Shown in pieces: positions 8,803 through 30,278 of a DNA stretch of 51,259 bases. This DNA comes from Candidatus Protochlamydia sp. Lineage in GTDB: Bacteria; Chlamydiota; Chlamydiia; Chlamydiales; Parachlamydiaceae. Made by a program: the position numbers and the translations under genes. The stretch is taken from the NCBI GenBank assembly GCA_013695355.1, contig JACDAQ010000033.1, positions 1 to 51,259 of the forward strand. The letters are read 5' to 3'. The stretch's first letter is position 1. Each line of letters opens with the position of its first letter. The notes beneath the pieces are model-generated. The model searched no databases and was not told the DNA's origin. It saw only the letters and a program-made list of their open reading frames with translations.

Positions 8803-10566
8803 TCAATTTCTGATTTCATTGGATGTAGAATGATCTTCTAGTATTTTAAAATCTTTAATCAGTAATTGTATACTTGATTTGTTGATTTGGGGGGTAAAAG
8901 CAATTCTTAGCTTAAGGTTTTTTTTTCTAAGATGGATGCTATGGGCTGCCTTTCCCAAAGCGACTCCTTCCAATACCCGGTCTCCTTGCTCTAAATAGAG
9001 TTTAAGGTGAGTTTTGCCAACGACTTTGGGTGGCCAGGTTTGCCACGCATCGCAGTAAAGGATAGGCTGGGGATTTTCATTGCCATAAGGTTCCAAAAGC
9101 CTGGCAGATTCCATAAAATCAAATGTAAGCTCGCTAAATTTAATCTCAGCATCTAAAGAAAGCTTGCTCATGACGTCTGAATCATTAAGGGTCTGATTAG
9201 CCTCGCTGATAAAATGGCTTTTAAATTGATCAATATGCTCTTCTTTTACAGTTAAACCTGCAGCAAAATCATGTCCGCCAAAATTGATTAGTATGCCTGA
9301 GCATTTTTTTAATGTAGGCAGTAAGGGAAATTCGCGGATTGATCGAACAGACCCTTTACCAATGCCCTTATCAATTGCGATCATGACAGTTGGGCGGTTA
9401 TACTGCTTTGAAATGCGGGTTGAAATAATTGCGATGACTCCGGGGTGCCATTTTTCAGATTCCATCACGATTGCTTTGTTATCTAAAATCATGGGATTTT
9501 CCAAAATAGTCGTATCCACATCAAGAGACATGGTCCTTTCAATTTTCTGCCTTTCAATATTATTAAGATCTAATTCTAAGGCCATTTTTTCAGCCAGCTC
9601 CGCATTTTTTACCAGCAGCATCTGGACACCTTTGCGAGGATCGTCAATGCGCCCTAAGCTATTAAGCCGGGGAGCGATTTTAGAGGCGATGGTAAAAGTC
9701 GTTAGGTCATTCAGGTCGACATCGCAGATTGAAAACAATTTATACAGTCCCATCCGCTTACCTTTGCGCAACTGACGCAAGCCATACCGGACAAGGATGC
9801 GATTTTCTGTATCAATTAGAGAACCCATGTCTGAAATTGTTCCAAGAGCGACAAGATCCAGATATTTTTTTAAATCGATTTTATTTGGGGGAATTGTCCC
9901 TTCTGAAGTCAGACGGTTGGTAATTCCATGGGCTAATTTAAAAGCCACGCCAACCCCTGTTAAATCCCTATTAGGATAAGCATTATTGACAAGCTTAGGA
10001 TTGAGCGTTGCAACGCAATGAGGTATTTTATCGGTTGGTTCATGATGGTCGGTAATAATCACATCCACATTTTGGGCTGCAACTTTGGCGATCTCAGCGG
10101 CCGCAGTAATGCCGCAATCGACTGTAATAAGAAGTTTGCATTCATTCATTAAAGCATATTCAAGCGCTTCGACAATTAGGCTTTGGCGTAGTGTGCCACG
10201 ATTGGATACATAAAAAAAAACATTAGCCCCCAGGTCCTGCAAAAACTCGGTTAATAGCGTGGTCCCGGTCATTCCATCAACGTCATTGTCGCCATATATT
10301 AAAATATTTTCTTTTTGCTGAATGGCATTGCAGACCCTTTCGACAGCTTGTGGCATTTCAGCCATTAAAAGCGGGTCATGCAATTCAGGCAGCTTGGCAT
10401 AGAGGTAATCATGAATTTGCTCAAATGATGTAAAACCGCGTGAAACTAGAATCTGTGCGATCACAGGGTGGAGTTTAAATTCTTTGATGATTCTGTCTCT
10501 AAGTTCATTGTCAATGGCAGGGTAGACCCATATCGGATCCTCTTGGGCATGCGCGTTGGAATGCAT
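8803..10566 (-). CDS. recJ: Single-stranded-DNA-specific 5'-3' exonuclease RecJ
   Basis: DHH-family exonuclease acting in recombination and repair of single-stranded ends. The metal-binding motifs are in place: YGDNDVDGMTG (residues 91-101), TVDCGI (Asp 150), TDHHEP with DHH at 173-175, and the DHHA1 motif GGHDFAAGLTV in the C-terminal half, followed by the OB-fold domain. Its 587 residues are normal for RecJ. The neighbourhood agrees with CT447. It is transcribed away from the nucleotide translocase gene, with 543 bases of repeat-filled spacer between them. Confidence 0.96.
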   Translation of the reverse strand: MHSNAHAQEDPIWVYPAIDNELRDRIIKEFKLHPVIAQILVSRGFTSFEQIHDYLYAKLPELHDPLLMAEMPQAVERVCNAIQQKENILIYGDNDVDGMTGTTLLTEFLQDLGANVFFYVSNRGTLRQSLIVEALEYALMNECKLLITVDCGITAAAEIAKVAAQNVDVIITDHHEPTDKIPHCVATLNPKLVNNAYPNRDLTGVGVAFKLAHGITNRLTSEGTIPPNKIDLKKYLDLVALGTISDMGSLIDTENRILVRYGLRQLRKGKRMGLYKLFSICDVDLNDLTTFTIASKIAPRLNSLGRIDDPRKGVQMLLVKNAELAEKMALELDLNNIERQKIERTMSLDVDTTILENPMILDNKAIVMESEKWHPGVIAIISTRISKQYNRPTVMIAIDKGIGKGSVRSIREFPLLPTLKKCSGILINFGGHDFAAGLTVKEEHIDQFKSHFISEANQTLNDSDVMSKLSLDAEIKFSELTFDFMESARLLEPYGNENPQPILYCDAWQTWPPKVVGKTHLKLYLEQGDRVLEGVALGKAAHSIHLRKKNLKLRIAFTPQINKSSIQLLIKDFKILEDHSTSNEIRN

Positions 10567-10734: not shown

Positions 10735-10910
10735 TATATCAAATGAGCTTAAAAATTAAAAATTAGGACATCTAAAAATTTTAAGGGATTGAGCCATTAA
10801 AAAGCGGTCAATATATGATATGGGACGCTTTTTGATGGTTCAATTCCGAAGTTTTTGACAGAGCCCAAAGCCCTGGTCCGAATTTCAATTTTTGAGTTCA
10901 ATTGGGTATA
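10735..10910. mobile_element. Degenerate palindromic MITE-like element, copy 1
   Basis: The 176-base segment folds as one imperfect palindrome. The left end TATATCAAATGAGCTTAAAA mirrors the right end (TTTTGAGTTCAATTGGGTATA at 10890-10910 read in reverse). Near the centre, AAAAAGCG (10799-10806) pairs with CGCTTTTT (10826-10833), and the flanking TTGAGCCAT (10789-10797) mirrors ATGGTTCAA (10835-10843). The right end is homologous to that of copy 2. It has no coding capacity. Confidence 0.65.
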
Positions 10911-11068
10911 CCCAAGTGAATTCAAAAGTTAGAATTTGGACTGCGTCAAAGCCCCGGGGTTGGCGTATCTAAATCGACCCATATTATAATATGGGGTCGT
11001 TTTAGATCCGTCAACCGCGGGAGCTTTCACGCTAGTCCAAATCCAATTTTTGAGTTCACTTGGGTATA
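10907..11068. mobile_element. Palindromic MITE-like element, copy 2, with TATACCC/GGGTATA ends
   Basis: The 162-base segment is an almost complete inverted repeat. The left arm from TATACCCAAGTGAATTCAAAA (10907 on) matches the reverse complement of the right arm ending TTTTGAGTTCACTTGGGTATA (11068), by eye at roughly 80-85 percent over about 78 bases. The centre is the hairpin CGACCCATATTA (10975-10986) paired with TAATATGGGGTCG. The element shares TATA with copy 1 at 10907-10910, as expected if one inserted at the TA end of the other. TA-flanked non-coding palindromes of this size resemble MITEs of the IS630/Tc1 class. Confidence 0.75.
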
Positions 11069-11109: not shown

Positions 11110-12645
11110 ATGGCGCAAGATGCCAAACATGATTTTGGTAAATGGAGGGCTTTTTTCTGGCCCGTGCACGTTTATGAACTTAAAAAACTGCTTCCAATGT
11201 TTTTTATGTTTTTTTGCATTTCTTTCAATTACACTATCCTTAGAGATACAAAAGACAGCTTAATAGTTACCTCGGCTGGTGCCGAAGCTATTCCATTCTT
11301 AAAATCATTTGGAGTAGTGCCCGCAGCCATTCTTTTTATGATCATTTACGCTAAATTGAGTAATGTTCTAAGCAAAGAAAACTTGTTTTATGTGACTTTG
11401 CTCCCTTTCATTATTTTTTTTGGCCTCTTCGCTTTTTTTATCTATCCAAAGAGGGAAGCGCTAATGCCGATCGAGTCGGCTGAAGCACTGCGTGCTTATC
11501 TTCCAGGAGGTTGGAAAGGTTTGGCGGCAGCTTATGAAAACTGGATGTATTCTCTTTTCTATATTTTAGCTGAGCTATGGGGTAGCGTTGTCCTCTCTCT
11601 GCTTTTCTGGGGTTTTGCTAACCAGATTACTCGTGTAACAGAAGCGAAGAGATTTTACAGCTTGTTCGGCTTGGGAGCCAATCTGGCCCTTTTAGTTTCG
11701 GGTCCTGCAATTTATTATGCATCCGATATCAGAAAGCATTTGCCAGAGGGCGTTGATGCATGGCAAGTTTCCCTTAATTACCTGATGGGAATGGTTGTCG
11801 TTGCAGGCTTGGCTATTTTAGCTGTCTATTGGTGGATTAACCGCAACATTCTGACCGATGCCCGTTTTTATGATCAGGATGCTCCTGGCCTTCCTAAGAA
11901 GAAAAAAATGAAAATGTCGTTAGGAGATAGTTTCAAATTTATCTTTACATCAAAATACATCCTTTCTTTGGCTGTTTTGGTTATTGCTTACGGGATTGCC
12001 ATTAATCTTGTAGAAATTACATGGAAGAGCCAGTTAAAGGAACAGTATCCTAATCCAAATGATTATAGTGCTTTTATGGGCTTGTTCTCTACGATGACGG
12101 GTGCTGTTACCATATTAATGATGCTTTTTGTCGGTGGGAATGTGATCCGTCTCAAAGGGTGGGGATTTGCTGCTCAAATTACCCCAGTAGTCTTGCTGGT
12201 TACGGGGGTTGCCTTCTTTTCATTCGTTATATTCAAAGGCAGCTTGGCCGGGTATATTTCTGCGCTCGGCACAACTCCCTTGTTCCTGGCAGTGATATTT
12301 GGAGCGGCCCAAAATGTGATGAGCAAATCGGCCAAATATTCTTTATTTGATCCGACCAAAGAAATGGCTTACATACCTTTGGACGAAGATTCTAAAGTAA
12401 AAGGAAAGGCTGCTGTAGACGTGGTAGGTGCACGCTTAGGTAAATCAGGCGGATCTCTTATCCAAATGGGACTTTTGGCCTTTGGTACATTAGCACAAAT
12501 CACACCTTACATTGGCGCGATTTTGCTTGTTGTTATCGTGGGCTGGATCTACGCTGCCCGCTCACTGAGCAAGCAGTTTACCCAGCTAACAGCTGATCAG
12601 AGTGTTGCTAATGCTGTTCCTGATGCAAAAGCTAAAGTGATCTAA
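11110..12645 (+). CDS. ntt: ATP/ADP (nucleotide) translocase, TLC/NTT family
   Basis: Inner-membrane carrier that, in obligate intracellular bacteria, exchanges bacterial ADP for host ATP or imports nucleotides. It has about 12 hydrophobic segments. The family motif LRDTKDSLIV is at residues 44-53 and the FYSLFGLGANLALLVSGP region is typical. The length of 511 residues fits the ATP/ADP antiporter subfamily. A GAGG lies about 10 bases before the ATG and a strong terminator follows the gene. In this window it sits between recJ and secDF, genes that are adjacent in C. trachomatis as I recall. Substrate specificity cannot be read directly; ATP/ADP exchange is the most likely function. Confidence 0.93.
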   Translation: MAQDAKHDFGKWRAFFWPVHVYELKKLLPMFFMFFCISFNYTILRDTKDSLIVTSAGAEAIPFLKSFGVVPAAILFMIIYAKLSNVLSKENLFYVTLLPFIIFFGLFAFFIYPKREALMPIESAEALRAYLPGGWKGLAAAYENWMYSLFYILAELWGSVVLSLLFWGFANQITRVTEAKRFYSLFGLGANLALLVSGPAIYYASDIRKHLPEGVDAWQVSLNYLMGMVVVAGLAILAVYWWINRNILTDARFYDQDAPGLPKKKKMKMSLGDSFKFIFTSKYILSLAVLVIAYGIAINLVEITWKSQLKEQYPNPNDYSAFMGLFSTMTGAVTILMMLFVGGNVIRLKGWGFAAQITPVVLLVTGVAFFSFVIFKGSLAGYISALGTTPLFLAVIFGAAQNVMSKSAKYSLFDPTKEMAYIPLDEDSKVKGKAAVDVVGARLGKSGGSLIQMGLLAFGTLAQITPYIGAILLVVIVGWIYAARSLSKQFTQLTADQSVANAVPDAKAKVI

Positions 12646-30260: not shown

Positions 30261-30278
30261 TGAGTTCACTTGGGTATA
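30261..30278. repeat. Solo end of the palindromic MITE-like element
   Basis: TGAGTTCACTTGGGTATA is identical over 18 bases to the right end of the element at 11051-11068. No second arm is evident in the dxr-rseP spacer, so this is a relic end or a chance conserved fragment. It starts 12 bases after the dxr stop. Confidence 0.6.

Follow-up and report, generated by a model that had tools for sequence, protein, structure and literature searches.

The elements that most resemble those described here are the CMITEs of corals (Wang et al. 2010, PMC2872659), our nearest precedent, in which interiors are more conserved between families than ends, tandem arrays occur, and a new element has formed by insertion. 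They are eukaryotic, and one piggyBac motif is found in all of their ends, indicating a single transposase superfamily; the ends of the chlamydial family, in contrast, span IS630-type (TA) and IS5-like (TNA) forms, and its core is a covarying palindrome. The MITEs of IS630/Tc1-mariner elements (Stowaway in plants; those of bacterial IS630 and of ISY100; PMC2170065) are likewise short and non-coding, with inverted ends shared with IS630 and a TA target. Ends are normally common and interiors different in such MITEs, and the chlamydial family reverses this. MITECca01 of Cardinium (PMC9769881) is also a high-copy MITE of an obligate intracellular bacterium, but is derived from IS982 and confined to one strain. 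The REP/BIME repeats associated with RAYTs (PMC3733652) are palindromes with conserved imperfections, like the elements studied here; they are, however, 20–40 bp long with a GTAG/CGTC tag, whereas the chlamydial element is 160 bp long, has target duplications of the DDE type and shows no local link to Y1 genes. TIMEs, mosaic miniature elements derived from Tn3 (PMC4133298), are miniature bacterial elements that form mosaics, but belong to the Tn3 family, and their abstract mentions no conserved hairpin core. A search of openly accessible literature found no account of MITEs in Parachlamydiales. To judge from sequence comparison, the present family departs from these bacterial MITEs in that the interior has been kept and the ends have changed.

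The window, by which we mean the whole stretch of 51,259 nucleotides of Candidatus Protochlamydia sp. that was analysed, contains two abutting palindromes, E1 and E2, in the intergenic stretch between a 587-aa frame (8803–10566) and a 511-aa frame (11110–12645). The initial annotation had described two long non-coding palindromes in tandem here; both are present, without ORFs, and the tandem arrangement was borne out (Table 1). Folded as a single DNA strand, E2 gave one 162-nt hairpin (z = -15.9), and E1 a less perfect structure; none of 200 shuffled sequences was equally stable in either case. The end TTCACTTGGGTATA, allowing up to two mismatches, matched at four places in the window, where 0.32 would be expected. 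Recurrence of this end after dxr, which had also been proposed, was confirmed for the end itself, but it is a lone end where the core model gives no match. The junction of E1 and E2 is GGGTATACCC, one TA shorter than expected from two intact TA duplications, and other tandem pairs in the same genome (L082 and L024, GGGTATATACCC; L089 similar) have one TA more. When E1 was searched for in its own genome no second copy was found, and its right end alone recurred. Because it matches the core model although it is otherwise unique, E1 is, on sequence grounds, a decayed homologue of E2. It would be an older copy, beside which E2 landed. Elsewhere in the window, a 694-aa protein (17910–19994, + strand) looks ankyrin-repeat-like by eye, and a 400-aa ORF of low complexity (34494–35696, - strand) contains repeats such as RGGRAVSEEYGPEFYREIGQRGG and AGRRGAEARWG; we take the latter to resemble KGG-repeat stress proteins.

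Table 1. Positions in the window of E1, E2, their parts and the solo end
Feature	Position	Strand	Remarks
E2, full-length MITE	10907–11068	+	162 bp including TA on each side; element proper 10909–11066; about 40 places in own genome
E1, decayed MITE of the E2 superfamily, abutting E2	10735–10910	+	hairpin z -7.0; core model E 1.5e-8
E2 left terminal inverted repeat	10907–10933	+	TA target duplication 10907–10908; 22/27 against left end of L250
E2 right terminal inverted repeat	11042–11068	-	TA target duplication 11067–11068; 23/27 against left end of L250
E2 conserved hairpin core	10936–11039	+	model R1, 97.1 bits, E 2.9e-25
E1 decayed hairpin core	10763–10868	+	core model 38.4 bits, E 1.5e-8
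E2 invariant block, left half AAAGCCCCGGGGTT	10948–10961	+	
E2 invariant block, right half AACCGCGGGAGCTTT	11013–11027	+	unpaired A 11022; G-G mismatch 11017/10957
Solo right end of E2 MITE family, after dxr	30261–30278	+	end-motif match 30265–30278

A search of the 3.14-Mb draft genome with E2 found copies at about 40 places, comprising 30 near full length, one split by a further insertion and nine cut by contig ends, among which copies may have been counted from both sides. Nearly all were bounded by TATACCC...GGGTATA, and the flanks outside the TATA were unrelated; the multi-copy palindromic MITE family foreseen in the initial annotation is thereby supported. The 15-base end GTTCACTTGGGTATA, with at most one mismatch, occurred at 87 sites, compared with one for a reversed control pattern. 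Many of these sites are very short elements of about 25–72 bp (for example 35, 41, 42 and 72 bp) with little beyond two E2 ends. Such elements were seen at L085, L095 (6819–6860), L093, L060, L083, L077 and L079; they are apparently deletions from the hairpin centre, and in some a short remnant of the core stem persists. Contigs C11, C13, C22, C36, C37, C39, C40, C41 and C44 of this genome (G000) end within E2 copies (matches of 124–127 bases). Nearly every E2 copy is bordered by TATA on either side, which fits either a TA duplication around an element that itself ends in TA or a 4-bp TATA duplication, and the TATATA at tandem junctions favours TA. The elements are short (about 159–171 bp across genomes, below the limit of about 300 bp for MITEs), have terminal inverted repeats and lie in many copies at unrelated sites, with apparent target duplications as read from the flanks. 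By the features tested they form a MITE family, which would be moved in trans.

The partner was sought among IS630 elements. An intact IS630 element of 1,119 bp (L250, positions 831–1949) in a relative, G016, encodes a transposase that matches NF033545 at 223 bits and PF13358. Its right end, TATACCGAACGTGATTCAAAAATTGGC, is identical at 27 of 27 positions to the end of a core-bearing MITE (L124) in G011, and its left end is identical at 24 of 27 positions to several E2 copies (for E2 of the window see Table 1); G016 itself also has a core-bearing MITE with L250-like ends (L359). A second IS630 element, L253, has C TA|GTACCC ends like those of the MITEs in its own genome. The earlier assignment to the IS630/Tc1 class is upheld by these shared ends, and mobilization of E2 by a transposase of this class is well supported at the level of sequence. 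Such a transposase would bind the ends of about 27 bp and insert E2 at TA, duplicating the TA. The IS630 tail at 2–115 of the window, to which the initial annotation had pointed, is not supported as partner: its 37-aa frame matches nothing in NCBIfam or Pfam, and the end motif is absent there. The catalytic domain found in IS630 transposases, DDE_3, is commoner in relatives than in the own genome, where its single instance is a half-deleted relic on contig C27. This relic has a surviving end that resembles that of E2 (16/19) and is homologous to L250; it is the better candidate for a partner. In this draft, TATACCC ends were not found on any intact IS; short-read assemblies often lose multi-copy IS. 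Sharing of ends with an autonomous transposon was seen in relatives, with the relic alone in the own genome. Across genomes, the presence of DDE_3 or DUF4096 did not track that of the core, a probable reason being that draft assemblies lack IS copies.

Matches to E2 were found in 17 of 32 genomes searched, many of them to the interior only, and in the copies read from relatives the interior was retained and the ends differed. A covariance model of the centre (about 106 bp), built from 65 diverse cores, found the core in 27 of 49 related genomes and 24 of 43 genera, with counts per genome that are lower bounds. A pattern for the two interior halves matched at least 99 GTDB stretches; among the matches listed, all titles were chlamydial except for three MAGs, one of which (SZAS-4, our G031) belongs to the same order as the window. 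The interior pattern was absent from IMG/VR, plasmids and phages. Outside the family, the half-block AACCGCGGGAGCTTT was not found in five other genomes, of which four gave no match to the core and the fifth (G002) gave just one, to a decayed copy. The initial annotation had spoken of a MITE family of this chlamydia: a family exists in the own genome, but its core also occurs across chlamydial genera and families, with unrelated ends. The core is older and more widespread than the ends, a palindrome of about 106 bp that has spread through Parachlamydiales and allied lineages.

Among 167 unique copies with flanks, palindromic ends could be measured in 150, whose length was near-constant; a script assigned the end types. 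The outer 27 bp or so fell into three types. Ends of the first, IS630-type, begin with TATAC and are accompanied by TA. Those of the second, also IS630-type, begin with GTGCTCTG, GTACACC or GTACCC and lie within C-TA...TA-G, which a paper cited in PMC2170065 is quoted as giving for the preferred IS630 target. The third type, IS5-like, begins with GGAACTGTNCAACAATAA or GAGGGTRTTTGATAAAT and is flanked by direct duplications of TTA, TAA or TGA. Duplications of the form TNA are also found on IS5-like (DUF4096) elements of relatives, and characterize the IS1031 group within IS5. They accompany GGAACTG and GAGGGT ends in 11 copies flagged by the script, although one of these (L220) is of the CTAG type, and in further cases besides. 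One MITE, L162, shares GAGGGTRTTTGA with an IS5-like element of a relative (L313), and no IS with exactly GGAACTG ends was found; the link to IS5 is drawn from duplication size and this one shared end. The own genome holds all three types, represented by E2, by L133, L366 and L370 (GTGCT-like) and by a relic, L365, whose ends resemble GGAGCTGGGCAATAATAA. A search based on the core favours conserved cores, and most positions of the block had been specified in the GTDB pattern. Elements were therefore also collected independently of the core, by IS5-like ends alone, from eight genomes. This gave 23 elements: 19 had the core (159–164 bp, one decayed), three were deletion forms of 88–97 bp with half a core, and one had another interior. 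The right half of the block was intact (15/15) in 15 of the 19. IS5-like GGAACTGTTCAGAAATAA ends were also seen around an unrelated interior at L289/L300 (G006:C12:20670–20836), which suggests that these ends move other cargo as well.

On a tree of 147 cores, end type changed at least 12 times, as against 26–31 times with shuffled labels. A single clade of CTAG-type cores was rejected (p = 0.012); a single clade of TNA-type (IS5-type) cores was not (p = 0.52), so that changes from IS630 to IS5 could number one. Because the cores are short, we limit the claim to these minima: ends switched between the IS630 and IS5 types once or more, and among the IS630 types more than once, as far as sequences can tell. 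A conventional MITE family belonging to a single transposon group, with ends that drift fast under the same transposase throughout, would account for the clustering of end types on the tree, for similarity within a type that is well above shuffled, and for TATACCC, TATACCG, TATACTG and TATACAC ends, which look like variation within one IS630 group. It fits poorly, however, with the three end types inside one genome, the rejected CTAG clade, and IS5-like ends that are no closer to TATAC ends than shuffled sequences (0.38 versus 0.37) and carry 3-bp TNA duplications rather than TA, and we consider it unlikely. The similarity of CTAG to TATAC ends (0.41 versus 0.36 for shuffled ones) was likewise read as a sign of unrelated ends. 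The best reading is a MITE chassis: its hairpin core is conserved and its ends, and probably the transposase too, have changed several times, so that the core may have used different transposases in different lineages. A likely route is suggested by L005 in the own genome, where an E2 copy interrupts a GTGCTCTGTAAAT palindrome at its midpoint, forming a 201-bp composite with outer ends of the CTAG type. New ends could arise in this way: one element would insert into a second short palindromic element, at its AT-rich centre, and the outermost ends would then take over. The centre of E2 itself serves as a target at L101 (G000:C15:114412–114742), where an E2 copy is split by another palindrome of about 170 bp, ACCTGAGTTTTGAG...CAAAACTCAGGT, with TATTA duplicated; the insert represents a second, unrelated MITE-like family in this genome. 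Other routes to new ends, for example template switching, are alternatives. The explanation as a whole, with E1 and E2 as IS630-moved MITEs built on a shared core whose ends have been changed repeatedly, we hold to be very probable.

What holds the core constant bears on the remaining explanations. Its stem has 41 pairs, 30 with compensatory changes on both sides, and 93% of cells are Watson-Crick. Within it, the block AAAGCC[C/T]CGGG[G/A]TT / AA[C/T]CGCG[G/A]GAGCTTT (14 + 15 bases) has a mean conservation of 96%, compared with 65% in the stem next to it; an A is left unpaired in 65/65 cores and a G-G mismatch is present in 54/65, figures partly biased by the core-based search. Such covariation, and a fixed unpaired base of the kind frequent in RNA motifs, would be expected of an RNA gene or regulatory hairpin (a UTR element, terminator or processing site) that is mobile only incidentally. 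Yet the core matched no Rfam family above the gathering score, the G-T and A-C mismatches are near balance (60 versus 38, or 37 versus 36 without two columns) where constraint on RNA would favour G-U, and the elements are not preferentially oriented with respect to flanking genes (25 versus 32, p = 0.43); this explanation retains only a very small probability. The near balance of mismatches and the absence of strand bias favour constraint at the level of DNA, or upkeep of the palindrome by template switching. The unpaired A and the G-G mismatch in the stem could also mark a hairpin recognized by a Y1 (HUH) transposase, as REPs are by RAYTs, which would move as single-stranded DNA into the centres of other palindromes and so account for the exchange of ends. 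Y1_Tnp genes do co-occur with the core (20/27 genomes with it versus 6/22 without; Fisher p = 0.0016, uncorrected for kinship). Three near-complete genomes (G031, G032 and G043), however, have many intact cores and no Y1_Tnp, only seven cores lie near 40 Y1 genes (250 kb), which is not clearly above background, and there is no GTAG/CGTC foot, the pair outside the block being T-A or C-G equally often, which leaves a Y1 mechanism highly unlikely. Words resembling GTTRRRY/RYYYAAC of integron attC sites occur in some copies, but in reversed order, and are absent from E2; this candidate was rejected. Production of the palindromes by assembly or local inverted duplication, without transposition, has next to no credibility: template switching can create palindromes and many contigs end within copies, but some 40 copies at unrelated sites, whose ends are nearly identical, and a core in 27 genomes already refute it.

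Arm-to-arm correction alone would erase a fixed asymmetry, and for this reason the block itself is probably selected. Its invariance and asymmetry suggest a role of the core in DNA binding or DNA folding, for example as a transposition enhancer or a site for a host factor. We tentatively put forward, as a possibility short of even chances, that the core is a selected DNA-hairpin module with a fixed unpaired A, needed for spread with any transposase, that has repeatedly taken over the ends of resident IS. If so, one selfish sequence exploits unrelated transposases in turn.

The E2 family breaks short-read assembly in its own genome, and assemblies of environmental chlamydiae more generally are interrupted at this family, a repeat that has gone unannotated. 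The usual definition of a MITE relies on its ends, and a MITE is taken to depend on one parental transposon and to die with it. A core that outlives its transposases by swapping ends would explain how this family stayed abundant in many chlamydial genera. It would also allow the part played by conserved MITE interiors to be tested in bacteria.
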